Program-made: the position numbers and the translations under genes
Notes under the pieces: model-generated
What the model was told of the DNA's origin: nothing
The model's input: only the letters and a program-made list of their open reading frames with translations
Database searches by the model: none
Source: Planctomycetaceae bacterium
GTDB taxonomy: Bacteria > Planctomycetota > Planctomycetia > Planctomycetales > Planctomycetaceae
NCBI GenBank assembly: GCA_029259875.1
Contig: JAJDEK010000128.1
Coordinates: 1 to 14,505, forward strand
Length of the DNA: 14,505 nt
Direction: 5' to 3'
Part shown: one piece after another, positions 1-14,505 of the stretch
Position numbering within the stretch: position 1 is the first letter of the stretch
Layout of the letters: the number at the start of each line of letters is the position of its first letter

Positions 1-803
1 ACATCCGTCAATGCAAAGCGGTTAAAAAACACGCATGATAAGGTGAACAAGATTAGTCCAAAAATGATGTTGCACCAAAATGGTATTCCCCAGGGAGAAG
101 CACTGAATCCTGAGGTGAGGACTAAGTTAATTTGACTCAAAATAGAAACTTGACTACGCCAGTCAAATACCTGTTCGATTGAATTGGCTATCATCGTTCC
201 TTGTGACATCCAATTTTGATCCAGCATTATTTGGAATATCCACTCTAATAATGGAGCACCTAAAAAAAAGAACACCAGAGCTAACACAACTAGAGTCGAT
301 GCAGAACGGGATCGTGCACATACGACAGAACAGAGAAGTCCCAGATTGGCTAGACAAAACAAAAATGCAGCTAATGCAGAATAGACAGCAATCACTTGCG
401 ATAAAGTGACACCGCCTAATGTAATCGATAGTAATGTAAACGGGAATTGAACTGACAACAACAAAAGAGCAGATACCAATCGTGGCAAAGATTTTCCCAA
501 CATGAGCGAAATGGGATTTACTCCCGCCATCAAGAGCAAGCCAATGGTTTGTTCTTCTTTTTCTTCAGTAATTGCAGTCGCAAAGATACTAATCCCTGCC
601 ATTAAAATAAAGACAAAATTAAGATAAATGATTTGTGTAAATAAAATCAGTCCACCGGCGCCGAAGGCTTGACTTGTCAGATGGGCCGACATTAAAAAAA
701 ACAGAATCATGACAGCAAACAGAAAACGAAACAAGTGCGTTCGTGTCAAACGAAAGTCGACACACAAAGCGCGATTGAACAGTGCAAACGTACCTTGAAA
801 CAT
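1..803 (-). CDS. ABC-2 type transporter permease, module copy 2 (3'-truncated by window edge)
   Basis: Membrane subunit expected to pair with the ATPase encoded just upstream. The frame opens with ATG at 803-801, sharing bases with the ATPase stop (TAATG), and stays open for 267 codons to the window edge, so the C-terminus is missing. A strong ribosome site (AGGGAG, 811-816) sits 7 bases upstream. Hydrophobic segments lie near residues 24-41, 52-74, 108-128, 136-160, 170-190 and 240-260. The stretch ITEEKEEQTIGLLL (about residues 78-91) is the typical ABC-2 coupling region, and it is followed by a conserved LGLLCS segment. Both align with the permease at 3671-5539 (ITQEKERNSLGLLL and LGVLCS), so the two are paralogues. 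The full protein may, like its paralogue, contain a second permease half beyond the edge; that cannot be seen here. Family assignment is secure; substrate is unknown. Confidence 0.88.
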   Translation of the reverse strand, partial: MFQGTFALFNRALCVDFRLTRTHLFRFLFAVMILFFLMSAHLTSQAFGAGGLILFTQIIYLNFVFILMAGISIFATAITEEKEEQTIGLLLMAGVNPISLMLGKSLPRLVSALLLLSVQFPFTLLSITLGGVTLSQVIAVYSALAAFLFCLANLGLLCSVVCARSRSASTLVVLALVFFFLGAPLLEWIFQIMLDQNWMSQGTMIANSIEQVFDWRSQVSILSQINLVLTSGFSASPWGIPFWCNIIFGLILFTLSCVFFNRFALTD

Positions 804-1774
804 TAACGAACTCCCTGCTCTGTTAAATCTAAAAACGCCTGATTCAAATGTTTCTTGTCTCTTTGGAAACTTTCAATTGATCCTTGTAATTCAATAATTT
901 TGGACAATAGATTCCCTGTTGTGGTGAGGGTCGCATCAAAGGAGATTCGAAGTTCGCGAGGCTTTCCAGTTTTTTCCACATTCATCACTCCTGGTTCACT
1001 CGCTAGTGATTCGACTAAGCCTTCCACTTCTGAGTCCAATGTGAGTTTATAACAGGGATGTTCCTGCTCATGCGTTAATAAACCATCCATGGTACCACTA
1101 TATTTCACCTTTCCACGATCAATAATCGTGACACTATCACATAGTTCAGCCAACTCACTAAGAATATGGGAACTGATAAAAATAGTTTTCCCCATCCGCT
1201 TCAGTTCCTGCAATATTTCCATTAGTTCAATACGCGCTCGAGGGTCGAGACCCGAGGCTGGTTCATCCAGTAGTAATAAATCCGGATCGTTAACCAAAAC
1301 GCGAGCTAAGCTGACGCGTTGCTGCATCCCCCGTGATAACCCACTGATCAGTGAATCTTTTCGGCCATCCATATCCGTTAATGTTAGGACATCATTGATT
1401 ACCTGATCGCGCTGCTCCAAACTCAATCCGTAAGCTGCCCCAAAAAAATCCAGATATTCATAAACTGTCATTTGGCGATATGTACTAAAGTGATCGGGCA
1501 TAAAACCAATACGTTTACGAATTTCTTTCACTGAAGAATTGACATCATTTCCAAAAACCTCCACTTTACCGGCCTGGGGGCGCAATAAAGTACAGATTAT
1601 TTTCAGTGTTGTTGTTTTTCCTGCGCCGTTCGGACCTACAAATCCATGTAGAGATTTTGGCTGGACTTGAAAACTCACTCCTTGCAAAGCACGATGGCCT
1701 TTAAAGGAATGAGAAATATTTTGAATATCAATCACAGGTTCACTTAGAAACAGCTCATTCATTTTTACTGTCAT
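803..1774 (-). CDS. ABC transporter ATP-binding protein, module copy 2
   Basis: Nucleotide-binding subunit (323 residues) of an ABC-2 type exporter, acting on the cytosolic face with the permease that follows. Visible motifs: Walker A GPNGAGKTT (47-55), signature LSRGM (146-150), Walker B LLLLDE ending at D170/E171, D-loop SGLD, and the H-loop histidine H203. The Q-loop position carries Asp (FMPD, D94) instead of Gln. Residues from about 225 to the end form the small C-terminal domain common in ABC-2 drug/Nod/Gld-type ATPases. The core is closely similar to the ATPase at 5536-6483, with DEPASGLDPRARIE identical in both. The start at 1774 overlaps the preceding gene by 20 bases, with GGA about 9 bases upstream; Met5 at 1762 is a possible alternative. 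The stop overlaps the permease start (TAATG), implying coupled translation. Confidence 0.95.
   Translation of the reverse strand: MTVKMNELFLSEPVIDIQNISHSFKGHRALQGVSFQVQPKSLHGFVGPNGAGKTTTLKIICTLLRPQAGKVEVFGNDVNSSVKEIRKRIGFMPDHFSTYRQMTVYEYLDFFGAAYGLSLEQRDQVINDVLTLTDMDGRKDSLISGLSRGMQQRVSLARVLVNDPDLLLLDEPASGLDPRARIELMEILQELKRMGKTIFISSHILSELAELCDSVTIIDRGKVKYSGTMDGLLTHEQEHPCYKLTLDSEVEGLVESLASEPGVMNVEKTGKPRELRISFDATLTTTGNLLSKIIELQGSIESFQRDKKHLNQAFLDLTEQGVR
811..816 (-). promoter_or_regulatory. Ribosome binding site for the truncated ABC-2 permease
   Basis: Read on the minus strand this is AGGGAG, placed 7 bases before the ATG at 803-801 and lying inside the end of the ATPase gene. Together with the TAATG stop/start overlap it fixes the permease start. 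Confidence 0.7.
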
Positions 1775-3671
1775 TCTTTTTTCCAGGTAGTGCTAATTCA
1801 TTAGCAAATAGAACACGCCCTTGTTGTGCCCCTTGTACGTCCGTCTTAAGCTTAAATTCATCGGGAAGATCACAATAAATAAACAATTGCAGCCGAGATA
1901 AGTCACCTGTGAAATTATTCAGATGACGGCGTTTTTCGATGTTTAGTTTTTTCAAAACGAGCCTTTCATACAAACTTTCATAGATTTTGGAAGGCTCTTG
2001 CTCTTCGTCCCCATAGCTAAACCGAGGCGCAGTAAGTGTATCTGAGTCTAAATATGATCTCCATGCGGAAAGTGGTGAGCGTTTCTTACCAAGTACCAAT
2101 AATGTGTTGCCTTCCTCTTTGGATTGTTTGAGGTCGTACAAAACGCGACCGTGCAATACTTGAATTCGCGTAATATTTTCAGGCAAAGGCGATCCTACCA
2201 GTATCGCTAATGCATCCAGGATTGAGTCTTTTTCAATCTTATAGTCGATTACCTCGAAGTCCTGCCTCTGGTAGGGAGACTTTATTCGATACATGAAACG
2301 TCGATCAGAAAATGGTGGGATATCTACAACGAACCCACCACCCACACCATTAAAAATGCGTCCGCGTATTTTCTCTGTTTCTTGAGCAGTCGTAAAGATG
2401 ACACCCTCGCCCATCGCAGAAAACTGATATTCAGCACCGTCTGTCACGAAGGAATTGATCCAACAAGTCAAATCATATTGACCATCTTGAAGAGGCTGTG
2501 CGATGATTAAACTATTCATTGTTGTGGTTTCACCATAACCACGTTTTCCAATACCCCAAAATATCGTACTGAAGAGTGCCACAGCGACGAATAGGAATAG
2601 TAAAGAATTACGATATCCTTTTTGTCTTTTATTAAACAAATAGCATCCAGGATAAATCACAAAAATATATACAAAAGTCATCAGATAAATCATTACCCAA
2701 TTGTGTTCAGGTCGGGTCATATCGGAGAGCTTTTGCAGAAAACCGATGTTGGTATCTCCAAATTGGTAGTCATTATTTGTTTGATTATTTGTATTCCGTT
2801 TTTTTTTCTTTTCTTTTAATGGCTGGGATACATCAATACCTGCTAATTCCATCGCATGTACTTTTTCAATTTCGAGTAATAGCTTTTCTTTATTGAGTTC
2901 CTTCAGTTTCCCTGCATGACGAATGACAAGTCCTGCACCAACGCGGAAATATTGAAAGGGGGCATTCAGCTCATTCATTGTTGAAGAAAATATCAGGTTT
3001 GCACCTGAAGAATCTGGAAGCAAATGCAGAACTCCTCCTTGATAGAGCCAATCCATAAATGAACTTCTACGCGCAGCTTCCCAGCGTTTGGGAACATGAT
3101 CTAAAATCACTTCAGCTAAAGAATCAGTAGCAGTCACTGAAGGAGGGAATAGTTCTTCAGGAAATTGTTTGAAATGGCTTCCACTTCGCGAAAGTGCGTC
3201 AAGACTGGTTAAGATAATACGTGAAGGATTACGAGTCGCATTCTCATTAGCAGGGGAGACATTCCTTCTACTGGAAATTTTACGGCTATATATAGAAGCT
3301 GGGCCCCAATTAAGGGACCAGTTATTCTGACCTTGATCAATAATATAGGGGTAAAACTGAACCCATTTTGAACTATAGGGTGTCAGGTATACTTTACGAA
3401 TAAGTGGGGCCCCCACTTTAGAGCCGTTAAATTGTTGCCGATTCAATAACATCACTTCATCAAATACTTCGGGAGTGTTATTACTCAATAGAAGTGAGAG
3501 CGGAATCATCTTTTGTTGTGTTGACTGATTACCAAATCCCCAAATCACTTCTTCTATTTCAAGTGCATAAATTGACGATGGCAAGCAAAGCAATAAAGCA
3601 AGACAGCCAACATTGAGTAATTGGTGTTTGAGCAGTCTATTCAGATTTTTTATGAATGAATATTGAGTCAT
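1755..3671 (-). CDS. Exported two-helix membrane protein, partner of ABC exporter (module copy 2)
   Basis: Protein of 638 residues with no family I can name firmly. An N-terminal signal sequence (hydrophobic about 20-36, likely cut after SIYA) leads into an exported domain of about 290 residues. Around 190-230 this has a weak glutamine-amidotransferase-like pattern (DWLYQGG then LHLLPDSSG). A Lys/Asn-rich linker (LKEKKKKRNTNN, about 285-296) follows. Two membrane helices (about 324-345 and 356-373) are joined by a basic loop (NKRQKGYR), then comes a second, probably exported, domain of about 265 residues. This layout matches the protein at 6528-8708, which also precedes an ATPase-permease pair, so it is likely its diverged paralogue. 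The role may resemble GldG-type auxiliary proteins of ABC exporters; that is inference. The ATG shares one base with the upstream stop (TAATG) and no ribosome site is obvious, so translation is probably coupled. An A9 run lies in the linker. Confidence 0.85.
   Translation of the reverse strand: MTQYSFIKNLNRLLKHQLLNVGCLALLLCLPSSIYALEIEEVIWGFGNQSTQQKMIPLSLLLSNNTPEVFDEVMLLNRQQFNGSKVGAPLIRKVYLTPYSSKWVQFYPYIIDQGQNNWSLNWGPASIYSRKISSRRNVSPANENATRNPSRIILTSLDALSRSGSHFKQFPEELFPPSVTATDSLAEVILDHVPKRWEAARRSSFMDWLYQGGVLHLLPDSSGANLIFSSTMNELNAPFQYFRVGAGLVIRHAGKLKELNKEKLLLEIEKVHAMELAGIDVSQPLKEKKKKRNTNNQTNNDYQFGDTNIGFLQKLSDMTRPEHNWVMIYLMTFVYIFVIYPGCYLFNKRQKGYRNSLLFLFVAVALFSTIFWGIGKRGYGETTTMNSLIIAQPLQDGQYDLTCWINSFVTDGAEYQFSAMGEGVIFTTAQETEKIRGRIFNGVGGGFVVDIPPFSDRRFMYRIKSPYQRQDFEVIDYKIEKDSILDALAILVGSPLPENITRIQVLHGRVLYDLKQSKEEGNTLLVLGKKRSPLSAWRSYLDSDTLTAPRFSYGDEEQEPSKIYESLYERLVLKKLNIEKRRHLNNFTGDLSRLQLFIYCDLPDEFKLKTDVQGAQQGRVLFANELALPGKKNDSKNE
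2799..2807 (-). repeat. Coding A9 homopolymer in Lys/Asn-rich linker
   Basis: Nine consecutive T on the plus strand, giving nine A in the message within AAG AAA AAA AAA CGG of the gene at 1755-3671. It is a potential slippage site just before the membrane helices. Confidence 0.9.
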
Positions 3672-5539
3672 TATTCTGAACTAAAAATAGGTTGGTCACT
3701 GACTGGAATTTTGGTATCTCGCGAGAAATGGATATCCTGATCACTCAAGCGGCCTAAGTTCTCATCGATGTGATTAAGACACTGAGATCGAAACAACAAT
3801 AAACACCCACCATAAATGATAGTATTGACCAGTAGAGGAATCCAGGGGGTACCAAACTCATGAAATTCCGCAATTTCATTAATGACCACAAATGAGGCCG
3901 GGCTCAGAAATAAGCCATAGATGATCGAGTCTTCGTCAAATGACGGATTCAACATAAATATAGGGAACGCTAGAATAAACGGTAGAATACACCAAACGAT
4001 AATCAAGCCTAATGCAGTAAGAATGGCCTTGGTTTGTGATTTCACTTTCATGCCGATCCAGCAGAATAACCAAATCAACATTGGCAGATAGATACTAAGT
4101 GTGATCAACGATCCGACGAGATAGGCAAACCATTGAAGGGCATATTCATTTCGATAACCCGAAGCGATATAGGAATACTCCCATTTCCACCAGGTTTCAA
4201 ATAACACAATCGTTAACAGAGGAATCAATAGTACCAGACACAAACGCTTCACGCCGGCGATTTTCTGACGCAATAACTCTTTTCCCGAAATGGGCGTTGT
4301 TAATAGCACATCCAATGTTTCATGTGAGCGTTCACCAGAAATCAAACTGGTCGCTGAAACTGCTAACAATAATACCGTCAAGCCCCAAACAAGCCATAAT
4401 AAAATGACTGCCCCGTCAACGACAGGACGTGGGCTACCGGTCGCGATAAGAACACATATAAAAAGTATCGGAACTTCAAGTGTCACCAAAATCCGAAACA
4501 GATATCGGAACGTTCCCAGAGACTTTTTAGAGGTTTCACGCCAGGCAATCGGTGCGAATTCGGGTAATTGTATTTGTTCTTTTACCAGTACAATTCCGCG
4601 AGTAACACGATTATTATTGATCTTGCTAAATACTCGATCCAACGATTTGAATAAATTCAATAAATAATTTCGTGCGGGAAGAAAAGCACGTCGTACCAGA
4701 AAATAGTGAGCAAAAATCAGAAACATAAATGTTGTGATCATAATCGGGATACTAAAAACGAATACACTGAAAACCGAAGCTGCACCTCCCCTCATGGAAA
4801 AGCGATCAAACCAGTAAGGCCCAAACATGATGAAACAGAGTTCCTCACCACCTCGATTGAAATAATTAGCTAAATACGGAGCTCCTTGTAGTGACCTTGA
4901 AATTGATCTTAAGAGATCTCCAAAATAGAACAGGTTTAACCCGTATAGAATACCTAGCCCAAACAGCATAAAAAAACCAACAACGTAAGTTGCAATAAAG
5001 GCTGATACCGTTGTGCGACAGAAGCTTGAGCATAACACTCCTAGCGCCGCGACCTGGAGCATGGTGATCAACAATAACCAGAGTGCGTTGATAAACATGG
5101 CCAGCGATACACCGCCCAGCGAATAGGCAAATGCTAATATTGGAAGCCCCAACATTAAAAACGTAATCATCGTGATTAAACGTCCCAGATATTTTTCCAG
5201 AATGATTGTGGAAGGGCTTAATCTGGTAATTAATAACAGTCCCAGGCTATTTCGTTCTTTTTCTTGAGTGATAACGCTACAAGTGATCGCAGGCAGAAAA
5301 AGATAGATCGCAGTAAATTGCAAATAAACCATCGATTCAAATATTTGGCGCCCGCGCCCAAGAATGGCCATTGGGTTATTTTGAAGGCCTGATATTGATT
5401 CGAGATAAATAAAACCGACAAATCCCAGAAATAGTAGTGCGTAGATCGTCCTGATAATATAGGTCCGCCGGCGATTTGCCATTTCCGCTAATTCTTTGGC
5501 TAATAGCGGAAGGCTGACTTGGAATTTCCTCATTTTCAT
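3671..5539 (-). CDS. ABC-2 type permease with two fused halves, module copy 1
   Basis: Membrane component (622 residues, about a dozen hydrophobic segments) of an ABC exporter, twice the length of a typical single ABC-2 half-permease. The start ATG at 5539 overlaps the ATPase stop as ATGA, with GGGAAG 5 bases upstream. The N-terminal half carries TQEKERNSLGLLLITRLS (from residue 91) and the C-terminal half carries SGERSHETLDVLLTTPIS (from residue 401). The 29-residue segments 91-119 and 401-429 align without gaps with about 8 identities, including E, L, T, S, K and G positions. The protein is therefore an internal duplication, with a hydrophilic link around 295-340. The two halves may form the complete transmembrane pore as a pseudo-dimer; this is inferred. 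It is paralogous to the truncated permease at 1-803. The stop shares a base with the next gene's start (TAATG). The transported substrate cannot be told. Confidence 0.92.
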   Translation of the reverse strand: MKMRKFQVSLPLLAKELAEMANRRRTYIIRTIYALLFLGFVGFIYLESISGLQNNPMAILGRGRQIFESMVYLQFTAIYLFLPAITCSVITQEKERNSLGLLLITRLSPSTIILEKYLGRLITMITFLMLGLPILAFAYSLGGVSLAMFINALWLLLITMLQVAALGVLCSSFCRTTVSAFIATYVVGFFMLFGLGILYGLNLFYFGDLLRSISRSLQGAPYLANYFNRGGEELCFIMFGPYWFDRFSMRGGAASVFSVFVFSIPIMITTFMFLIFAHYFLVRRAFLPARNYLLNLFKSLDRVFSKINNNRVTRGIVLVKEQIQLPEFAPIAWRETSKKSLGTFRYLFRILVTLEVPILFICVLIATGSPRPVVDGAVILLWLVWGLTVLLLAVSATSLISGERSHETLDVLLTTPISGKELLRQKIAGVKRLCLVLLIPLLTIVLFETWWKWEYSYIASGYRNEYALQWFAYLVGSLITLSIYLPMLIWLFCWIGMKVKSQTKAILTALGLIIVWCILPFILAFPIFMLNPSFDEDSIIYGLFLSPASFVVINEIAEFHEFGTPWIPLLVNTIIYGGCLLLFRSQCLNHIDENLGRLSDQDIHFSRDTKIPVSDQPIFSSE

Positions 5540-6483
5540 GCGGTCTTCCCTTCCGTTAACTTCATGAACACCGTTTCCATGTCCATCGCTTCCGCCTGAA
5601 ACATGCGAATCTTTGCGCCAGTGGCTGCAATCTTTGCATGCAGATCTTCAACAGCCAATCGATCTTCCTGCAACTGAATTGCCAGGCGATCTGCTTGTGC
5701 GGTAACAGATTTCACACCATCGATATCTTCAATTTTTTGGCAAATACCATTCATGTCACCTACAACCTGAACATGAATGATGCGGCTTAATTCCAGACGT
5801 TTATAGATATGATCTAACGACCCCTGAGTGACAAATTGCCCGGCTTCAATAATTCCAATACTGGTACAGAGCTGCGACAACTCGTGTAGAATATGACTGG
5901 AAATGATAATGGTCTTTCCCATTTCCTTTAATGCAACCAAGAGCTCGCGAACTTCAATTCGAGCGCGAGGGTCCAGTCCACTAGCTGGTTCATCGAGCAA
6001 TAATAAATCGGGGTCGTGAAGTAAGACCCGCGCCAATGCCAAACGCTGTTTCATACCACGTGACAATGAATCAACGGGGGCATCTATTTTTGCAGTCAAG
6101 TCTGTCAGTTCCAGAACATCGTTGACAATCGCTTTTCGTTTTTTTCGATCAATACGATAAGCGGCTGCGAAAAAATGTAGATATTCCCGGGCTGTCAAAT
6201 CTTCATATACACCGAAAAAATCCGGCATATAGCCGATCATCTCTCGAATCAAATGCGGAGCCTTTCCAACGGAAATCCCATTAATTTTGACCGACTGACA
6301 GTCATAGTCACGCTGTAAAGTCGCCAATACTTTGATTGTGGATGACTTGCCGGCACCATTGGGACCGATGAAACCAAAGACTTCTCCTTTCGGAATGGAA
6401 AAGGAGATGCCTTTGACGGCTTCGTACGTTCCGTAACGGACCCACAAATCTTTCACTTCCACCATGGGAGGTTGTATGCTCAT
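5536..6483 (-). CDS. ABC transporter ATP-binding protein, module copy 1
   Basis: Cytosolic ATPase (315 residues) driving the ABC-2 permease that follows. Motifs: Walker A GPNGAGKSS (40-48), signature LSRGM (140-144), Walker B LLLLDE with D164/E165, D-loop SGLD (168-171) and H-loop H197. The Q-loop position is Asp (YMPD, D88), as in the second ATPase of the cluster. Residues from about 215 form the C-terminal accessory domain usual in this ABC-2 class. The stop and the permease start overlap as ATGA, a tight coupling typical of an ATPase-permease pair. The gene follows the longest gap of the window (44 bases), which contains a 24-base imperfect palindrome. The ribosome site is weak (AAAGAAGAA about 11 bases away), so the ATG at 6483 is likely but Met7 remains possible. 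Confidence 0.95.
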   Translation of the reverse strand: MSIQPPMVEVKDLWVRYGTYEAVKGISFSIPKGEVFGFIGPNGAGKSSTIKVLATLQRDYDCQSVKINGISVGKAPHLIREMIGYMPDFFGVYEDLTAREYLHFFAAAYRIDRKKRKAIVNDVLELTDLTAKIDAPVDSLSRGMKQRLALARVLLHDPDLLLLDEPASGLDPRARIEVRELLVALKEMGKTIIISSHILHELSQLCTSIGIIEAGQFVTQGSLDHIYKRLELSRIIHVQVVGDMNGICQKIEDIDGVKSVTAQADRLAIQLQEDRLAVEDLHAKIAATGAKIRMFQAEAMDMETVFMKLTEGKTA

Positions 6484-6496
6484 TGGTATGTAAATT

Positions 6497-6520
6497 CTTC
6501 TTTATATTAATAGTAAGAAG
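6497..6520 (-). promoter_or_regulatory. Imperfect palindrome between exported protein and ABC ATPase genes
   Basis: On the minus strand CTTCTT and AAGAAG flank an AT-rich centre built around TATTAATA; 20 of 24 positions are self-complementary. It lies in the only gap over 35 bases, directly upstream of the ATPase at 5536-6483. It could be a regulator site or a weak RNA hairpin. No U-run supports a strong terminator, and no convincing -35/-10 pair is visible. Confidence 0.3.
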
Positions 6521-6527
6521 TGGTGAT

Positions 6528-8708
6528 TTAAGTTTCTTTAACGATAAACTGCCGATAGATCGTGTCTTGGTCATTTCCGGGAACATAAACGACAACTAAC
6601 CATTGCCTGGAATCAGAAGGATCCAGAATACTCAAGTCTTCATAATTTTTACCACCAGATGGTGATGTTTGTGAAACAATTTGAAAAAGTCCGTTTTGAT
6701 TGCGTACGCACAGATCATCCATAAAGCTATGTCGCTCTTGTTTCTGATTCCCATAATACTGCTGGTTGTTCTGTAAAAACTCGTTAAATAGTGCGTAGTC
6801 TTTCGCCGAACGGTAATTATTCCTGTTTCGCGGATAATCTTCTTCTGTAAAGAGCGAATATTTTTTGACTTCGCCATTCTTCTGACCCTGGTAAATCAGT
6901 ACTTTAACTCGTTTTCCGAAAGCAGTTTTGATTTGTTCTCTGAGTTTTACGCGACCTTGATGCGACTTGAGTTGATTCACTTTGATAGAAGACCAGTCAA
7001 AGTTTGCTTGTAAATCCTCTGGATAATTCTGAATCATGCGATTCAGTTGAGGTGTCCATTGAGGCATCAGTTGAAAAACTGAGTATTGCGTGGGAATCGT
7101 TCCTGAATAAAAGGGTGGGCCTACTAGAGACTGAACTCTGTTACGCGAATACATATTATAATTTTGTGTCATCCCTAATTCCGTATGATTCAAGGGAGTG
7201 AAAAGTCCGGATTTGACTTTCGTTTCAATTTTTTGGTAAGAACCAGTGAATAACAATTCAATTTGATTTTCCTTAACAGGATTTCCCTGAGTATCTAAAT
7301 CATGAATTGTCAGTGTTTTTCGTTCATAGGATGTCTGCATATAATAATCAGAGACGACAAATGCAAAACCCGCACAAAATATTGAAATTAATGGAAATGT
7401 GATCCAGGTAAATCGCCGTAACCCAAATTTTCCTAGAATAAAATATTCACCCGGACCAATAATCAGCACATAACCCAACAGAATTGTTGTAATAATCCAA
7501 GAAGGAACAATCCGCATTTCCGCAGGCATTAAGTCAGTGACAACCGCTCCCCCTGTATAGATCGGTCGATAATTCAGGTTAAGAATTTCATTAGCCGAAT
7601 AAGAATTTATGTTGGAATAGCGTGTTCTTTTTTCTCTCATTAGAAATGAATTGACCAGTGTTTGATAATCCCACTTTTTTTCTTTCTCGAAATATTTTCT
7701 TTGTGATTCTCGTAGCTTCCATAAAAAAAAGGGAATTTGATTCAGATTAGCAGGAGTAAGGCTTTTCTCTTCCAGTGCATCTGACAAAACTATCACACTC
7801 CTGCCCCAACCAGTTCGTTGAAACCAGATCTGTTCCGTCTGATCAATTACAAGCTTACCCTCTGAGTCGATTAAAAAGGGCGCCGCATTTTTGCCTTCAA
7901 CAAGGTTGTTCATAAACTGAACTTGTTGTTGTTCCAATACAGAACCAGCAAGTAAGCATAAACTTCCTCCTGATCTGACCCATTGATAAATCGCTTTCAA
8001 GTGACGTGATTCCAGTTGTTCAAAACCACGTGCTGTAATGACAAGAATGTCATACTGATGACAATCGATCGGCAATTGTGGGAACTCAGGAGGCGGCAGA
8101 TGAATGGAAACGGTTTTCACGCTTAAAGACAGTGGTTGATTTCTTAATAAAGCCACATTGGGAATCGTTTGTTTGAGTGCATTAATATCAAGTTGAATGG
8201 GCTCTTTGGGACTGATTGACTCAAAGTCTAAGCGTTCTAAAAATTCCTTTAAGTCTTTCGATAGGATAACATCAAATGGGTCGCAGACTCCAACGGCAAA
8301 CGTTCTATGAAAACGTCGCCCGACTCGTAATGTATATTCATCTTTAAAGTCGTACTGCTGGTTTGGAGTCACAAAACTGAGTTTCAATTTAATCTCAGAA
8401 TAGGGATTATCCACTTTGATGGGTGGCAGCATCATTGGTATTTCATGAAAGCCCGCATGCATTGCGACATCATGCGACTTGAACGTGCCGTATTTTTCGA
8501 GGCCATCATGCGCTGTGACCAGAAAGTATCCTTCTAATAACCCCGTCGAAGACACGGAACATTGCCAGACAAACGCCACCGGGCCATCACCTTTGGGAAA
8601 TTGTGTAGGCTGCCGAATATCAACCGTTAAGGGAAATGTCTGCGCAGACAGAACTCCGGGAGCTAAAAAGAAAAACAACCAAAAATAATGCAGAACTTTC
8701 TGGATCAT
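6528..8708 (-). CDS. Exported two-helix membrane protein with glutamine-amidotransferase-like domain, partner of ABC exporter (module copy 1)
   Basis: Protein of 726 residues that I cannot assign to a named family. A signal sequence (about 5-22, likely cut after LSA) precedes a beta-rich exported region. Residues 218-260 read YDILVITARGFEQ, then IYQWVRSGGSLCLLAGS, the pattern of a class I glutamine-amidotransferase-like fold seen in planctomycete DUF4350/DUF1355-type proteins. No catalytic Cys elbow is visible. Two membrane helices (about 402-420 and 434-452), joined by a short basic loop (GKFGLRR), are followed by a second soluble domain of about 270 residues, probably outside. The gene sits 30 bases after the BatA-like gene and 44 bases before an ABC ATPase. 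Its twin at 1755-3671 holds the same place in the second module. It is probably a dedicated partner of the exporter, comparable in position to GldG-like proteins, by inference only. Only a distant GGAAAG precedes the ATG. Confidence 0.85.
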   Translation of the reverse strand: MIQKVLHYFWLFFFLAPGVLSAQTFPLTVDIRQPTQFPKGDGPVAFVWQCSVSSTGLLEGYFLVTAHDGLEKYGTFKSHDVAMHAGFHEIPMMLPPIKVDNPYSEIKLKLSFVTPNQQYDFKDEYTLRVGRRFHRTFAVGVCDPFDVILSKDLKEFLERLDFESISPKEPIQLDINALKQTIPNVALLRNQPLSLSVKTVSIHLPPPEFPQLPIDCHQYDILVITARGFEQLESRHLKAIYQWVRSGGSLCLLAGSVLEQQQVQFMNNLVEGKNAAPFLIDSEGKLVIDQTEQIWFQRTGWGRSVIVLSDALEEKSLTPANLNQIPFFLWKLRESQRKYFEKEKKWDYQTLVNSFLMREKRTRYSNINSYSANEILNLNYRPIYTGGAVVTDLMPAEMRIVPSWIITTILLGYVLIIGPGEYFILGKFGLRRFTWITFPLISIFCAGFAFVVSDYYMQTSYERKTLTIHDLDTQGNPVKENQIELLFTGSYQKIETKVKSGLFTPLNHTELGMTQNYNMYSRNRVQSLVGPPFYSGTIPTQYSVFQLMPQWTPQLNRMIQNYPEDLQANFDWSSIKVNQLKSHQGRVKLREQIKTAFGKRVKVLIYQGQKNGEVKKYSLFTEEDYPRNRNNYRSAKDYALFNEFLQNNQQYYGNQKQERHSFMDDLCVRNQNGLFQIVSQTSPSGGKNYEDLSILDPSDSRQWLVVVYVPGNDQDTIYRQFIVKET

Positions 8709-8738
8709 AAAGGCAGATTCTCTCTTTCCTTGAGTTAT

Positions 8739-10622
8739 TTACGCAGGGATTCCAGTAGGACGACGCTGAAAATACCACCACTCTAACAACAGTAATACAA
8801 ATGCAACAAATGCAAACTCACTCCAAAGCGGCTTATCACTGTCAACTTGCGTTTGCGCTGCAGAGACTGGCACTTCACTAAACTGAATCTCGTCAATGGA
8901 AACGAGGGATGTCTCCAGGGGGTTCAATAAACTTACACTAATTTCATCTGATTTCGCACCTTCACCACTTATCAGGTATTTACCCACGTGCAAGGCAGCA
9001 ACACCAGACACAATTCCATTTTTGTTACTTTCAGCACTTAGTTGTTTTCCATTGGGTGCTTTGATTTTGTATTTTTTTTCTGGCACATATTCGACGGTAG
9101 GTAAGAGAGGCGTTGCAGAGGCCTGCACTTCTGCGATTCCAGCCTCCTGTAAAGTAAGCTGTATTAAATTAGAAACCATAATCGGAAAACCAACACGGTA
9201 AGGCATCGTTGAACGATCGGTGTTGAATAAAAAGTAAAACTCCAGCCCGTCCGAATTTCGTTTTTGTAATAAAAGTGGCCCCAATCGACCATGAATTAAA
9301 ACTTCATATCCTAATTCTTCCAGATTCTCAACTTTTGCGTTCTCTGCCCAAACAGGCTGCTCTGTAATTTGCACATCACCCAGCTCTACGTGCCTCAATA
9401 AAGCGGAACTACGATTCCAGTCTACGACATCTGTTAAATTGACTTCGAGTAAAACATAGCTTTTTAAATCATCAGGCACAAAACCGACTCCCAGTTTTAC
9501 CAAAGCCTGTTTGTCCATATTTTTCTCATAGGAAGAAATGACCAAGTCATATTCCGGAGGTCCCGCAGCGCCATCCTGTTCGGGATACAATACCAGATCT
9601 TTGTTTTCTCCTAACGCATAACGGTAACTCGTGAGATCAGGATCAATGAAAACTAACAACGACCGTGATTGAGGAATGTTGAGAAAGGCGCGATTATCTG
9701 AAAGCAAACTGTCATAGGTGCCAGGAATCAGAATGGCTTCCAGAGAAGACTTCTTATCGGCACTAATAGAAAATTCCAAGCGTTGTGAATCTCCCTTACC
9801 CAATACGATTTCCTCTTTAGCAATACTCTGCCTATCTTGTAACAATTCTACTGTGACAGGGCTTTCATTTTTTTCAGAGTTTTCAACGCGTATAAAGACA
9901 TCCCAGTTTCCAGTTTGATTTTTTCGTGCATTGAAAGAGGTAATTCCAACATTCGATCCCGCTGTTGGGAGCATCTGGTAATTTAGTTCAAAAGGAAGAT
10001 CAAAATCTACTTCCTGGGGAAAATTTCCATCTGAATAAAAGAGTACCGTTTTAATCGGCACTGTCCTTGAAAGGGCTTGTGTCATCCGTAAGGCATCTTC
10101 CAGATTACTTGGTACATCATCTACCGTTAATCCAGCAAGCGACTGTTTAAGAATGCGCTGATTATCCGTAAAGTCAGTCAATCGACGTGCTGTCGAGCCA
10201 ACAGCAACTAAGGAAACACGTTGATCGGGAAGTAAATTATCAATAATTTCAGTGACACGTTCCTTCGCGAGTTCCAAGCGTGATTCTTTTGTTTCAGGAT
10301 CCGTTGCCGCCATACTGGCAGAACAATCAATCAGAATTGGCAAATATTCCGCCCGCTCCGCTCCGCTCTGAATATAGGGTTGCATCAATGCCAGAACTAA
10401 GAACAGCAGCAACAAAATTTGTAGCAACAGCAAGATACTACGTTTGAATTTTTGAAATGGCGAATTAACACGACGGTCGTTGATTACTTGGCTCCAAAGC
10501 GCCAGTGAAGGAACACTTTTATGGGGCCGCTTTAATTTCAAAAAATAAAAGACCACCAATGGTAACAGCAATAACAGGTACCAGGCCCCCGGAAGGGAAT
10601 AAAAGCCAGGCCAATAATTCAT
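8739..10622 (-). CDS. BatA-like membrane protein with VWA domain
   Basis: Membrane VWA protein (627 residues) of the aerotolerance-operon (BatA) type. The N-terminal BatA region has two helices (about 12-28 and 62-80) separated by a basic cytosolic loop (KLKRPHK...KFKR). A VWA domain follows with an intact metal-site motif DCSAS (99-103) and a downstream YSDG strand. A long region of about 330 residues comes next, including a YDLVISSYEK segment that may be another degenerate amidotransferase-like fold. A last helix (about 602-618) ends in a basic tail. Charge distribution suggests the VWA domain lies outside the cytosol. The ATG at 10622 overlaps the DUF58 stop as ATGA and has AAGGG 8 bases upstream. 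A GTG at 10631 (three residues longer) is also possible. Family knowledge links such proteins to MoxR ATPases in envelope stress or complex assembly; the partner here is not proven. Confidence 0.9.
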   Translation of the reverse strand: MNYWPGFYSLPGAWYLLLLLPLVVFYFLKLKRPHKSVPSLALWSQVINDRRVNSPFQKFKRSILLLLQILLLLFLVLALMQPYIQSGAERAEYLPILIDCSASMAATDPETKESRLELAKERVTEIIDNLLPDQRVSLVAVGSTARRLTDFTDNQRILKQSLAGLTVDDVPSNLEDALRMTQALSRTVPIKTVLFYSDGNFPQEVDFDLPFELNYQMLPTAGSNVGITSFNARKNQTGNWDVFIRVENSEKNESPVTVELLQDRQSIAKEEIVLGKGDSQRLEFSISADKKSSLEAILIPGTYDSLLSDNRAFLNIPQSRSLLVFIDPDLTSYRYALGENKDLVLYPEQDGAAGPPEYDLVISSYEKNMDKQALVKLGVGFVPDDLKSYVLLEVNLTDVVDWNRSSALLRHVELGDVQITEQPVWAENAKVENLEELGYEVLIHGRLGPLLLQKRNSDGLEFYFLFNTDRSTMPYRVGFPIMVSNLIQLTLQEAGIAEVQASATPLLPTVEYVPEKKYKIKAPNGKQLSAESNKNGIVSGVAALHVGKYLISGEGAKSDEISVSLLNPLETSLVSIDEIQFSEVPVSAAQTQVDSDKPLWSEFAFVAFVLLLLEWWYFQRRPTGIPA

Positions 10623-11524
10623 CTGACCCACCCTTTCCGCCTCAGTAAATCAAAGACGACATGTTCCAGTGTATCACCACTGTTGGTCATTAGAAATCGC
10701 CCGGAACGCTGCCGACAGAGCATTGACAGATGGTCTTCTAATAAAACACGATGTTCATGGTACAGTCCCAGTAAATCTCCCGCCGAAGAGATATCCAGAG
10801 TCTGCCCTGATTCGCTATCAACCAAACGTAAATCACCATTGATTTCCGGGTTGATCTCAGAGGGAGCTAATATTTGAACTCCAAACAATTCCAAGCCTGC
10901 GCTAAAGAGCATATTAAAAGGGCGCTGTAAATCGCCAAAGGATTCATAATCGGAGAGAACAATGGCAACTCCGCGTCCACGATGTGAACGTAAGACATCT
11001 TCGACTGCTGATTCAATCGGAGAATTACCACCGACTTCGATCGAAGACAGGAAGTCAAATAAACGCTTCATACTAATTCGACCAGTACAAGGCGATAAGT
11101 TAACGGGGCGTCCCCCTTTGTGATTGCAGGAATAGGCGCTTACTTTTTCAAAGTTCAAGAGTCCCATCACACCGAAAGCTGCGGCCAATTGCTTACAACG
11201 CAAAAACTTGTCCTCATAATCCATGGAAGAAGAGGCATCTATAATCAGCACCACATGCATTTCTTCTTCATGCTGATATTGCTTCATGAACGGTTTGTTT
11301 AATCGGGAAAAAATGTTCCAATCAATATAACGCACATCATCACCGGGAACATAGTTCCGATAATCTGAAAATTCTGTGCTGGTTCCTCCTTTGCCGGAAA
11401 GGTGCTCACCACGACTACGATTCGTCAATCGTCGCGTTGGATTTAAACGTAATCTCTCCAACATTGATAACGTTTTGTTATCAAACAAAGCAGTATATTG
11501 ATTTACTTGAGTTCCCTGAGACAC
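10619..11524 (-). CDS. DUF58 domain protein (short, soluble, VWA-like)
   Basis: Cytosolic protein of 301 residues, the usual genetic companion of MoxR ATPases. The DUF58 signature is clear: EFSDYRNYVPGDDVRYIDW (51-69), then a conserved basic/aromatic stretch and HEEEMHVVLIIDASSSMD, where DASSS (96-100) is an intact VWA metal-site motif. No membrane helix is present, so this is the short form rather than the roughly 400-residue membrane-anchored form. The start is GTG at 11524, six bases after the MoxR stop, with AAGGA (11535-11539) 10 bases upstream inside the MoxR gene. The stop overlaps the next start as ATGA. It is likely a MoxR client or adaptor linking the ATPase to the membrane VWA proteins; that role is inferred from gene association across bacteria. 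Confidence 0.94.
   Translation of the reverse strand: MSQGTQVNQYTALFDNKTLSMLERLRLNPTRRLTNRSRGEHLSGKGGTSTEFSDYRNYVPGDDVRYIDWNIFSRLNKPFMKQYQHEEEMHVVLIIDASSSMDYEDKFLRCKQLAAAFGVMGLLNFEKVSAYSCNHKGGRPVNLSPCTGRISMKRLFDFLSSIEVGGNSPIESAVEDVLRSHRGRGVAIVLSDYESFGDLQRPFNMLFSAGLELFGVQILAPSEINPEINGDLRLVDSESGQTLDISSAGDLLGLYHEHRVLLEDHLSMLCRQRSGRFLMTNSGDTLEHVVFDLLRRKGWVR
10631..10635 (-). promoter_or_regulatory. Ribosome binding site supporting the BatA-like start
   Basis: AAGGG on the minus strand, 8 bases before the ATG at 10622-10620, which overlaps the DUF58 TGA as ATGA. It favours ATG over the GTG at 10631-10629, although a GAGG 8 bases before that GTG keeps the alternative open. Confidence 0.5.
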
Positions 11525-11530
11525 CTAAGA

Positions 11531-12547
11531 TCAATCCTTTTCTGGTAATTCTTTGCAGTTCTGTTCGATCAAATCAGTCACATTGATATTTTCTGCCTGA
11601 CCATCGTAATTCATGAGCACCCGGTGCTGGAGTACTTCATTGGCAAAATAGCGAATATCTTCAAACGCAACATGTGCCCGCCCTTCACTGAGAGCACGAA
11701 CGCGTGCTGCTTTGACTAAAGATTGTGCGGCACGCGGACTGGCGCCCCAATGGATAAAACGCCGGACCTCTTCGCTGGCAAAGTCTGTTCCGGGATGTGT
11801 GGAGAGCACCAACCGAATGGCATAGTCTCGGATCGGTTCGACGACAACGACTTTTTCCAACAAATTTCGTAGTTCGAGAATTTGCTCACTGTTTAACAAT
11901 TTTTTCAATTCTACTGGCTGTCTCAGAATGGTTTGCTGCACAATTGTGTTGAGTTCAGCCCGATTTGGAAATGGGACGTTTACTTTAAACATAAAACGAT
12001 CCAACTGTGCTTCGGGTAATGGGTAAGTCCCTTCCTGTTCAATGGGATTCTGTGTTGCCAGCACAAAAAATGGTTGATCAAGTCGATACTGTGTTCCTGC
12101 GGCTGTGACAGTCCCTTCCTGCATTGTTTCCAATAAAGCAGACTGCGTTTTGGGGGAAGCGCGGTTGATTTCATCGGCTAACAAGAGTTGAGTGAAAATC
12201 GGTCCCTTTCGGAATTCAAACCGATAAGTGCCCGTCTCATCGGTATTCATAATATTGGTTCCAATAATATCAGCCGGCATTAAGTCAGGCGTAAATTGAA
12301 TCCGCTGAAAGTCTAATTCTAATACCCTTGAAAGCGCTTTTACCAATTCTGTTTTTCCCAGTCCTGGAACGCCTTCCAGTAAAACATTCCCTCCACAGAA
12401 CATCGCATATAATGTTGATTCGACAACCCGTTTCTGGCCAATAATCATACGGCCGACTTCAGAACGAACTTCATCAAACACCTTTTTAAAATGGTCCGCT
12501 TCAGCCTGCAATACTGCAGGTTCTTCAGTTACTTCTGGCTGGTTCAT
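11531..12547 (-). CDS. MoxR family AAA+ ATPase
   Basis: Cytosolic AAA+ ATPase of 338 residues with chaperone-like roles in maturing or remodelling protein complexes, usually together with VWA-domain partners. Motifs are complete: Walker A GVPGLGKT (59-66), Walker B LLLADE (121-126), sensor 1 Asn in ATQNP (N167), arginine finger in QLDRF (R184) and sensor 2 in GASPRA (R272). The C-terminal lid domain is of normal length. The ATG at 12547 has a good ribosome site, GGAGAG, 6 bases upstream. The gene lies 29 bases after a VWA membrane protein and 6 bases before DUF58, the classic MoxR-DUF58-VWA order. It is the likely energy source for the VWA part of the cluster; whether it also affects the ABC exporters is unknown. 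Confidence 0.97.
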   Translation of the reverse strand: MNQPEVTEEPAVLQAEADHFKKVFDEVRSEVGRMIIGQKRVVESTLYAMFCGGNVLLEGVPGLGKTELVKALSRVLELDFQRIQFTPDLMPADIIGTNIMNTDETGTYRFEFRKGPIFTQLLLADEINRASPKTQSALLETMQEGTVTAAGTQYRLDQPFFVLATQNPIEQEGTYPLPEAQLDRFMFKVNVPFPNRAELNTIVQQTILRQPVELKKLLNSEQILELRNLLEKVVVVEPIRDYAIRLVLSTHPGTDFASEEVRRFIHWGASPRAAQSLVKAARVRALSEGRAHVAFEDIRYFANEVLQHRVLMNYDGQAENINVTDLIEQNCKELPEKD

Positions 12548-12553
12548 ATTGCT

Positions 12554-12559
12554 CTCTCC
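12554..12559 (-). promoter_or_regulatory. Ribosome binding site for MoxR
   Basis: GGAGAG on the minus strand, with a 6-base spacer to the ATG at 12547-12545, within the 29-base gap after the preceding stop. Confidence 0.7.
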
Positions 12560-12576
12560 GCAGAATAAAATTCGTA

Positions 12577-14505
12577 TTATTTTTCGTCTTCAGACTGTCG
12601 TCTTCGTTTGAGATCCAGTAATCGACCGGTTGTGGTTGCATTATCACCTGAATCAGCGGCTGGTTTGGCACCTGGAGGATTTGTTGTTTTGTCTGTCTTT
12701 TTCTTTTGGGCATTTTCTGTTTGTGAATTTGGTCTGGTTGATTTTTGCTTTTGTTCTTGCAATTTAGAAATCGTGGATTGAGAAGTAATCTGCTCTGCGA
12801 TACTCGAAGAATTCGCCTTGCGTAAATCCAGTTCTTCGACAACACCTTGTTTACGTTGCAGCAATGCCCCCATTGTTGCTGTACTTGCTTTTTGTTCTGA
12901 ACCGAACCCAAACCAGCTTTTGATTACGTACCAATCAAGTTGAACGCGTCTGATGCCAACATCCAATGGCACTAAAATGGCCAAGGCGATCAGAAACCAG
13001 TCAAACACAGGATTCGAACTTTGTTTGGGCTCTCGACGTCCATAAATCACTTCCGCCGCGTTTTCTGGATTCAGTTTCTCTCCCCCCGTTTTTTCAGCAA
13101 TCTCTTCCAGCACGATGGGGTTCGAACGGAAACGTAGAAATTCTGGAGAATAGGGAACGATGAAACCACCATTAGTATGATCTTCGCGGTCTCCTGATTT
13201 CCCAATCGCCATCACTTGATAGCGTCCTTTCCCCCATAGAGGAACTGAAGCCTGGTACCGGCGGGGGCTGACTTGTTTAAGTACAACCGTTTCTTGTTTG
13301 TCGTGAGGGCCTGAAATACGAGCCGCCACATTCAGAAACGATTCTTCAGGATGAAAATCTTCCACCATAATCGTGGCATTGTTCCCATTGGTGTGGCTCC
13401 ACATTTTGAGATGTGCTTGTTTCTGAACACGCGAGATTTTAATCATCAACTGCTTAACAAACGCACTATAGTGATCCCAATTCACCCAATCAGCGCCCCA
13501 GTTGGGGGATAAATCAGAAGTGAATGCAGCCGTTGTTCCTAGTCCATAACGCCAGAATGCCAAGACAGGGTCAATATCGCCTTCCGCTTCTTTCTTCTCT
13601 GGCGCGTTCAAAACACCTTCTGCCCTGGATTTGATCGTGGTTAATACATAACCATGTAGTGGCGGTATTTCCTGAACCCCTTTCAGAACGGAAGAAATCA
13701 TTCCTACTTCGGGGGTAATCGTTTCGTTTTGAATCATACTCCGTTTCAGAGTTTTCGACTCTTTAATAAAAATCGAAGGCAACTGATTTGGGTCGGACGG
13801 AAAATAATAACGTCCCCCTGTCGCGCCTGCGATGCCACGCATCGTTGAGATATCACGGCCTCCATGCGGAAAGACCGCAACCATTGACACGCTGACTTTA
13901 TTCTTGACAAATCGGCCGATCAATTTAGGAGAGGGTGGCTGTGGATCGCCATCTGAAATAATAATCATGTGCTTTGTGGCCGCATCACTTTTGATGAGAC
14001 CTTCCAGCCCTAATCGCATCGTGTTTGCAAAGCTCGGCATGTCGCCAATTTGTGCACCGTTAATTTTGGGTACCATTTTCTCATAATCACCGGCAGGCAT
14101 CAGGTCAACTAACCACTTTTCGCCTCCCATGTAATCATAGACTAATACACCTACTTCATCCTGCGCTCCTAGCACTTTGATCGCCTGTTTTGTGATCCGC
14201 TTACCCCAGGTATTCCCTTCTGGAAATTCACAGGTATGCAAAATGATGGCAAGGGCGCCTTTGGGGAGCACTTTCTTTTTTGTGATATCCATTGTCACAG
14301 GTAGCGCATCTTCGATGACGGTCCGATGATATCCCCCCGGCCCATAACTATTTTCCCCCCCCACCATCATGAATCCAATTCCCTGATTGAAGATGGAATC
14401 ATGAACAGCCTTTAATTGAATCACATTAAATTCGTCGGCGGGCACATTTACGAACATAATGGCATCGTAAGGCATCAAAGACAGCGAATCACCGGGAAAC
14501 TCATA
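12577..14505 (-). CDS. Membrane protein with glutamine-amidotransferase-like and degenerate VWA domains (5'-truncated by window edge)
   Basis: The frame is open to the window edge (642 residues visible). The TTG/ATG near 14478 is internal, because coding sequence for the same domain continues upstream of it. Residues 12-70 form the C-terminal part of a class I amidotransferase-like domain (YDAIMFVN, MMVGGENSYGPGGY, DALPV), as in planctomycete DUF1355-type proteins. A VWA domain follows from about 82 to 245. It has ISDGDP (182-188) and GDMPSF (154-159), but the metal-site motif DxSxS reads HTCEF (90-94), so classical metal binding is unlikely. A mixed region to about 495 follows, then a membrane helix (about 502-519) and a charged, low-complexity tail of about 120 residues, probably cytosolic. 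Planctomycete relatives usually have an N-terminal BatA-like membrane and VWA part, which would lie outside this window. The gene precedes MoxR by 29 bases and is probably its partner. Confidence 0.9.
   Translation of the reverse strand, partial: YEFPGDSLSLMPYDAIMFVNVPADEFNVIQLKAVHDSIFNQGIGFMMVGGENSYGPGGYHRTVIEDALPVTMDITKKKVLPKGALAIILHTCEFPEGNTWGKRITKQAIKVLGAQDEVGVLVYDYMGGEKWLVDLMPAGDYEKMVPKINGAQIGDMPSFANTMRLGLEGLIKSDAATKHMIIISDGDPQPPSPKLIGRFVKNKVSVSMVAVFPHGGRDISTMRGIAGATGGRYYFPSDPNQLPSIFIKESKTLKRSMIQNETITPEVGMISSVLKGVQEIPPLHGYVLTTIKSRAEGVLNAPEKKEAEGDIDPVLAFWRYGLGTTAAFTSDLSPNWGADWVNWDHYSAFVKQLMIKISRVQKQAHLKMWSHTNGNNATIMVEDFHPEESFLNVAARISGPHDKQETVVLKQVSPRRYQASVPLWGKGRYQVMAIGKSGDREDHTNGGFIVPYSPEFLRFRSNPIVLEEIAEKTGGEKLNPENAAEVIYGRREPKQSSNPVFDWFLIALAILVPLDVGIRRVQLDWYVIKSWFGFGSEQKASTATMGALLQRKQGVVEELDLRKANSSSIAEQITSQSTISKLQEQKQKSTRPNSQTENAQKKKTDKTTNPPGAKPAADSGDNATTTGRLLDLKRRRQSEDEK

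Follow-up and report, generated by a model that had tools for sequence, protein, structure and literature searches.

A planctomycete gene cluster that combines MoxR/VWA genes with two ABC modules

Genes of the window

The stretch of DNA considered here (the window, 14,505 nucleotides) is the entire contig G000:C33 (JAJDEK010000128.1) of a 3.6-Mb metagenome-assembled genome (MAG) of a Gimesia-related member of the Planctomycetaceae, 74% complete (GCA_029259875.1). It is filled without a break by ten large minus-strand genes in the list of open reading frames (ORFs), where the original prediction had counted nine genes on one strand. In the order of transcription these encode a membrane protein with VWA and GATase1-like domains (VWAgat, cut), a MoxR-type AAA+ ATPase, a DUF58 protein, a BatA-type membrane VWA protein and two ABC modules, each with an exported partner, an ABC ATPase and an ABC-2 permease (P1, A1, M1 and P2, A2, M2; M2 is cut). 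The successive junctions measure +29, +6, -13, +30, +44, -4, -1, -20 and -1 bases, a range of -20 to +44 that agrees with the gaps of 44 bases or less described earlier. Since reading frames are open at both contig ends, the ends of the window are not those of the operon. The same order of all ten genes is found in 4/4 complete Gimesia genomes mapped (G003, G014, G001 and G010; g, G and L with a number designate a genus, a genome and a locus), and for this reason the arrangement is not a product of chance. The cluster is a new form of MoxR-VWA operon, one combined with ABC modules, and we give slightly better than even chances to the reading that the window covers the middle of a long operon encoding a single apparatus of the cell envelope.

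Within the window, 17 promoter-like sites were found against 30.7 expected, among them one at the M1/P2 junction (3699-3670, minus strand). Terminator-like sites number 21 against 12.4 in shuffled sequences (standard deviation 4.0), most of them inside genes and on the coding strand. No terminator-like site lies in any intergenic gap of the window, and one (10630-10607, minus strand) covers the overlap between DUF58 and BatA. An Rfam scan of the window gave no match.

The MoxR, DUF58 and VWA assignments and the two ABC ATPase/permease pairs of the original prediction agree with Pfam, in the case of M2 by the smallest of distances (Table 1). MoxR has intact Walker A (GVPGLGKT) and Walker B (LLLADE) motifs and matches PDB entry 2r44 with an E-value of 2e-84; neither MoxR nor DUF58 has a predicted membrane helix. 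For BatA, a scan of the G003 ortholog places two transmembrane segments at the N terminus (9-34 and 61-91), and a further one, read by eye from the sequence and not called by the scan, may exist at the C terminus. The window holds 642 of the about 1015 residues of VWAgat, which are 94% identical to the corresponding part of the full-length G003 protein (1015 aa); the latter carries a VWA domain, N-terminal hydrophobic segments and one more such segment near the C terminus. Second VWAgat paralogs exist in other orders of the class (G040:C10:3242834 and G049:C57:381403).

In both ABC modules the nucleotide-binding motifs of an ABC ATPase occur together with an ABC-2 permease. Walker A, signature and Walker B are complete in A2 as in A1, and the two ATPases are about 41% identical (cross-matches in G003). 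M1 shows about 13 hydrophobic segments in a transmembrane scan of its G003 ortholog; M2 is represented by 267 of about 519 residues, 82% identical to the first 267 of the G003 protein. Each module had been predicted to have its own exported two-helix partner, and the G003 orthologs of P1 and P2 do combine an N-terminal signal or anchor helix with two membrane helices. A sequence search of PDB with P1, P2 and M1 gave no match, and the Foldseek/VIA matches of P1 and P2 span mainly the N-terminal Ig-like domain.

Table 1. Features of the cluster; coordinates are those of the window unless a locus is given
Feature	Position	Strand	Details
Upstream continuation in relatives	L037:173-7914 (G003)		equivalents L039-L044, L143, L145, L154-L156
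VWAgat, VWA + GATase1-like membrane protein	12577..14505	-	PF07090 49.7 bits (cut-off 27); 5' part cut by contig end
MoxR-type AAA+ ATPase	11531..12547	-	PF07726 AAA_3 211.8 bits; AAA_lid_2
DUF58 protein, VWA-like	10619..11524	-	PF01882 90.2 bits; DxSxS as DASSS at residue 96
BatA-type membrane VWA protein	8739..10631	-	PF07584 BatA 42.1 bits; PF13519 VWA_2 54.4 bits; DCSAS at residue 102
P1, exported partner of ABC module 1	6528..8708	-	Ig-like domain, alpha/beta domain, transmembrane hairpin, C-terminal domain
A1, ABC ATPase of module 1	5536..6483	-	PF00005 94.2 bits; Walker A, signature LSRGM, Walker B
M1, ABC-2 permease of module 1	3671..5539	-	PF12679 66.7 bits
P2, exported partner of ABC module 2	1755..3671	-	architecture resembles P1
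A2, ABC ATPase of module 2	803..1774	-	PF00005 115.5 bits
M2, ABC-2 permease of module 2	3..803	-	PF12698 31.7 bits (cut-off 31.6); 3' part cut by contig end

Additional copies and irregular matches of the ABC genes were also recorded. Other orders and Gimesia have a third A gene, which shares about 45% identity with A1 (L083-L093). Gimesia has a second P2-M2-like pair, 29-35% identical (L094, L095 and G000:C17:340-3363), and neither of the two mapped loci, L094 and L095, contains a match to A1 or A2. Merged M1 matches far longer than one gene occur in L103 (G091), L122 (G173), L107 (G080) and L061, the last with two tandem M1-like ORFs. The P2 match is interrupted by one TAG in G004:C55:54820-56682 and falls into two pieces in G011:C404:6800-8657, as a pseudogene or an assembly error.

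Conservation of gene order and the upstream continuation

The gene set of the original prediction holds for the MoxR/VWA and ABC genes and is too small, since an importer-like ABC system stands upstream in relatives. Five genes precede VWAgat in the four complete Gimesia genomes: an EF-hand gene and genes for a charged, coiled-coil membrane protein, a solute-binding protein (SBP), a permease and an ABC ATPase joined to an NHL propeller (ATPase-NHL). In G003 the genes between the charged protein and VWAgat, both included, overlap by 4 bases at each of their four junctions.

At the thresholds used, orthologs of DUF58, A1 and A2 are present in 120/170, 113/170 and 122/170 genomes of the family, respectively; DUF58 and A2 occur together in 109, DUF58 alone in 11, A2 alone in 13 and neither in 37. 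Linkage of DUF58 with A1 was found in 59 genomes (20 genera), against five with both genes on one contig and unlinked, and that of DUF58 with A2 in 43 genomes (19 genera), against seven. The genomes with the two genes on different contigs (37 for DUF58-A1 and 59 for DUF58-A2) count neither way because of contig breaks.

Individual junctions were scored in 86 loci of 37 genera, picked for DUF58, A1 or A2. A genus was taken as linked if any of its loci was linked, and a junction as judgeable given a match or a stretch of 4 kb; this procedure may overlook weak P1 homologs. Outside Gimesia, the genera linked among those judgeable are, for the upstream part, 3/3 for EF-hand/charged protein, 7/7 for charged protein/SBP, 11/11 for SBP-permease, 12/13 for permease-ATPase/NHL and 24/25 for ATPase/NHL-VWAgat. 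The MoxR/VWA block follows with 23/25 for VWAgat-MoxR, 25/25 for MoxR-DUF58 and 32/34 for DUF58-BatA, and the ABC modules with 23/27 for P1-A1, 26/30 for A1-M1, 16/25 for M1-P2, 28/28 for P2-A2 and 27/31 for A2-M2. According to the original prediction, separate occurrence of the two blocks in most relatives would speak against a common operon; BatA and P1, which join them, are linked in 23 of the 31 judgeable genera, and in three of the other eight (g8, g14 and g59) P2-A2-M2 comes directly after BatA. The order from MoxR through A2 is unchanged in 14 genera, Gimesia included, one of which (g21) has no M2 match. As a control, the junction between M2 and the first gene beyond the operon, a TIM barrel, is linked in 0/14 genera outside Gimesia, so a neighbour from outside the unit does not stay. 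This TIM-barrel gene, linked in Gimesia, was rejected as a member of the operon on the same count. That all these genes belong to one conserved cluster appears well supported by these comparisons.

The history of the cluster was approached with two trees. In that of the ATPases, A1 forms a clade of 36 rows and A2 one of 37, with Shimodaira-Hasegawa-like approximate likelihood ratio test (SH-aLRT) values of 97 and 100, the exception being a row from G020c, labelled A1, that groups with the third paralog. Because A1 and A2 of genomes with a split cluster share these two clades with those of intact operons, they are orthologs. The DUF58+BatA tree has 40 rows, four of them outgroup, and leaves out 14 of the 54 loci with DUF58 and BatA, among them G104core (contig ends after BatA) and G100 and G188 (contigs end at or just after M1); G096, where P2 is missing, was scored as not full. 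It implies six changes between full and not full and three between split and not split. Full members are spread over the family; in an earlier version of the tree G089 lies near the base and G099 within a clade in which most members are split. This pattern would be accounted for by an old full operon, broken several times, and independent rebuilding of the same order seems less likely.

Judging by the matches obtained, further families of the phylum have similar gene sets. At the thresholds used, VWAgat was detected in 171 of 294 sampled genomes and an A-type ATPase in 117. Outside the class, four genomes (G387, G328, G215 and G456) have VWAgat-MoxR-DUF58-BatA-P1-A1-M1 together and in the same order, three of them also with SBP, permease and ATPase-NHL, and in G193, G224 and G282 VWAgat-MoxR-DUF58-BatA is followed by A (47-49%) and M-like matches. 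Among the matches listed, VWAgat and A lie within 20 kb of each other in 15 of the 77 non-family genomes having both (11 families), where chance would give about one genome by hand arithmetic; 17 of 18 such pairs, several of them from one genome, are on one strand, and A is downstream of VWAgat, as in the window, in nine of the 15 genomes. The locus of G041, from another order of the class, is flanked by an aspartyl-tRNA-synthetase-like gene.

Regarding the products of the upstream genes, the charged protein has N-terminal hydrophobic segments followed by a long charged stretch and matches DUF4175 at an E-value of 0.049 at best, the SBP is membrane-anchored, the permease has 11 segments and the ATPase-NHL fusion of Gimesia is 613-660 aa long. 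NHL and ABC ATPase share one frame in 13 genera of the family (g1, g5, g8, g14, g16, g19, g42, g52, g59, g66, g68, g71 and g72) and in the distant genomes G387, G328 and G215. In other orders the propeller has a gene to itself beside VWAgat, and several distant genomes likewise show it in its own frame. A triple fusion of permease, ATPase and NHL, suggested by long frames in G023 and G099, was discarded since the permease lies outside the frame concerned. The SBP is related by sequence to the Fe3+ family of ferric binding proteins; its acidic motif is kept in 27/27 loci despite varying flanks (TDTDD in 26, TDSDD in one; e.g., L037:3543-4583), which suggests that the ligand may not be ferric iron. 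Outside Gimesia, the EF-hand gene was seen in three genera, and it was not seen in g14, g44 and g68, where the upstream sequence could show it. In four Gimesia genomes the EF-hand gene is preceded by a DUF1549/DUF1553 gene (L178:14507-16171), which adjoins a divergent gene for a 1445-aa PQQ-propeller/malectin protein (L178:9621-13958). Given this divergence, the operon promoter in Gimesia is probably located between the DUF1549/DUF1553 gene and the divergent one.

A candidate envelope apparatus and the alternatives

Since the genes for motor, adaptors and pumps have stayed together in many genera of planctomycetes, one shared envelope machine is likely, in which AAA+ remodelling may serve the ABC systems or another envelope complex. 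Precedents, as far as the available sources tell, are RL3499 of Rhizobium, a MoxR on which membrane integrity and morphology depend, NorQ, by which the VWA partner of a membrane enzyme is remodelled, and the complex predicted for archaea (see below). By the positive-inside reading, the VWA domains of BatA and VWAgat would be in the periplasm. MoxR, with DUF58 and the VWAgat tail in the cytosol as intermediaries, would pull on or remodel the membrane VWA/GATase-like scaffolds; BatA and VWAgat would touch P1, and P1 and P2 could pass force to the ABC-2 modules or take it from them. These modules might be the mechanical or exporting units in the maintenance or assembly of the envelope, while the SBP-permease-ATPase-NHL part might act as the gate of the machine, either sensing a ligand or taking it up. 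A bolder proposal is that of a trans-envelope machine, present in much of the phylum, with four ATPases in a single assembly (the MoxR ring, the importer-type ATPase-NHL and the two ABC-2 ATPases), an NHL propeller that reads the ligand, a VWA/GATase-like scaffold, P1 and P2 acting on the periplasm and P1 coupling AAA+ to ABC; in this complete form we hold it to be rather doubtful.

Several observations weigh against a shared apparatus. Conserved order can be explained by shared regulation alone, and the Fisher test applied to the co-occurrence of DUF58 and A2 ignores kinship. The 74%-complete MAG of the window yielded no ATPase-NHL gene, so that the upstream half is taken, in the case of this organism, from the related genome G003, and in g41, g43, g44 and g76 of the family the NHL gene is unfused. 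No A1 match was obtained at the threshold used in g8, g14, g47, g49 and g66. The third A gene is away from any core gene in 11/11 loci, with a weak P1-like match beside it in 10/11. In other orders of the class, seven of 14 loci have NHL-VWAgat-MoxR-DUF58-BatA and the others a part of it, three of them DUF58 alone, and the sequence around all 14 contains no match of A1/A2 type; as far as these loci tell, the ABC modules are separable from the MoxR/VWA core. Among the distant genomes with VWAgat near A, six of the 15 (among the matches listed) have A only upstream or on the other strand. Within the family, the conserved association of the MoxR/VWA block with the ABC modules does not extend to eight genera in which the blocks are apart (g2, g5, g41, g42, g63, g66, g71 and g73). 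P1 is kept behind BatA with A1-M1 elsewhere in g2, g5, g42 and g71, accompanies A1 away from BatA in g63 and g73, and in g41 and g66 VWAgat is far from DUF58. In g57 the core contig stops right after BatA and another contig starts with P1-A1-M1, so that this genus counts neither way.

The core without ABC genes in other orders, the P-A modules found alone and the eight divided genera all fit co-regulated neighbours, that is, an envelope-stress unit of the cmd/Bat type (see below) and two ABC-2 exporters that answer one signal and act independently. This explanation is possible, yet on the unlikely side: broken-up clusters retain most parts, in four genera P1 remains next to BatA with its ABC pair elsewhere, and VWAgat adjoins A in 11 families outside its own (among the matches listed). 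Systems such as MxaRSACKL and NosDFY mature periplasmic metalloenzymes, and the cluster might do likewise, MoxR/VWA opening the target and the ABC modules supplying it with a metal or cofactor, while metal would be handled by the SBP and the EF-hand protein. In NorQ-NorD, according to the available part of the source, a finger of the VWA domain reaches into the pore of NorQ, and the authors propose that metal can be inserted owing to a twist exerted on the linker of NorD; such insertion by remodelling, the relation of the SBP to the Fe3+ family, the EF-hand protein of the Gimesia operon and the acidic motif of all 27 SBPs are in line with this proposal. It is nonetheless quite improbable, as no candidate target enzyme is among the genes conserved outside Gimesia, where the EF-hand gene itself was seen in just the few genera mentioned above. 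Ferric-binding SBPs carry a tyrosine pair, and this pair is not conserved at the TDTDD motif.

Still less credit is given to a secretion or gliding-type system, in which A, M and P would form, with MoxR as the assembling factor, a true exporter of protein or polymer comparable to GldAFG or to the MoxR-vWA-DUF4350 complex predicted for archaea. The archaeal prediction has, in the available text, the same three types of partner (PMC5898192), and DUF4350 (PF14258) is matched weakly by 5/25 P1 homologs (best E-value 0.0069) and 4/52 P2 homologs (best 0.00059), the P1 and P2 of the window itself giving no match in this search. Against such a function, the cluster has no conserved cargo gene, and the ATPases reach 216.6 and 215.1 bits, far below the cut-off of 402.6 of the GldA equivalog. 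P1 and P2 were also tried as GldG proteins and rejected: neither they nor their homologs match PF09822, and in a comparison with a profile built from five planctomycete PF09822 proteins (from five of the eight loci tried, out of 12) hhalign gives E-values of 0.3 and 0.51.

Comparison with known systems

The closest experimental relatives of the cluster are the cmd operon (RL3499-RL3502) and the Bat operons, and the closest concept is the archaeal MoxR-vWA-DUF4350 complex. As far as the available sources tell, operons of the MoxR-VWA kind have a wide distribution among bacteria and archaea. No description of a combined MoxR/VWA and ABC operon was found in the accessible parts of the openly licensed literature. 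In Rhizobium leguminosarum, RL3499, an MRP-type MoxR encoded in the operon cmdA-D, is needed for membrane integrity and morphology (PMC3893208; PMC5700661). The window shares with cmdABCD and with the Bat operons of Bacteroides, Leptospira and Borrelia, as these are described in the text available, the combination of MoxR, DUF58 and a membrane VWA protein in one operon: its MoxR has intact Walker motifs and is accompanied by adjoining genes for DUF58 and a BatA/VWA membrane protein. A Pfam search of the window genes gave no BatD or TPR match. Unlike those operons, the present cluster includes the ABC modules and the SBP, permease and ATPase-NHL, none of which is mentioned for cmd or Bat in the available portions of the two papers (PMC3893208; PMC5700661).

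The A/M/P modules resemble GldA-GldF-GldG of Bacteroidota in that a GldA/DrrA-like ATPase, an ABC-2 permease and an exported partner are encoded together. They differ in the permease, which here has 519-622 aa against the 240 positions of the GldF model; M1 obtains 45.1 bits where the GldF equivalog asks for 288.5, and the cut M2 has no match. A PF09822 (GldG-type) protein is encoded elsewhere in the same genome (G000:C37:7440-8348; L206), on a contig that also has an ABC ATPase match (C37:5474-6085). In view of the lack of a PF09822/GldG match in P1 and P2 and of the low ATPase scores, the earlier label of Gld/Nos-type modules was too specific.

A further likeness is to the ternary systems of MoxR, vWA and beta-propeller, three components which the present cluster also brings together; in the available text on these systems, the propeller lies within the vWA protein (Kaur et al. 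2020, PMC7159879). BatA, DUF58 and VWAgat give no match to a propeller domain, the NHL propeller being found on the ABC ATPase or in a gene of its own. Assignment of MoxR to the bpMoxR family of these systems was discarded: PF20030 passes its cut-off (32.6 bits against 27), yet the architecture differs and AAA_3 scores far better (211.8 bits).

To our knowledge, few clients of the MRP/BatA branch have been established, and the cluster provides concrete candidates for clients of MoxR, namely P1/A1/M1, P2/A2/M2 and SBP/permease/ATPase-NHL. A chaperone is tied here by gene order to named ABC modules in more than 12 genera, and a gene fusion lies on its other flank. The archaeal counterpart, arCOG01314, consists of a MoxR/GvpN-family AAA+ protein, secreted vWA proteins and a membrane-anchored, flavodoxin-like DUF4350 protein, and is predicted to be a secretion or membrane-remodelling complex (Makarova et al. 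2015, PMC5898192). In the portion of that source available, no ABC ATPase or permease is named and the DUF4350 protein has one C-terminal transmembrane segment, whereas P1 and P2 of the window each have their own ABC pair and their homologs match DUF4350 weakly. The planctomycete cluster would connect the MoxR-vWA-DUF4350 complex predicted for archaea with ABC systems.

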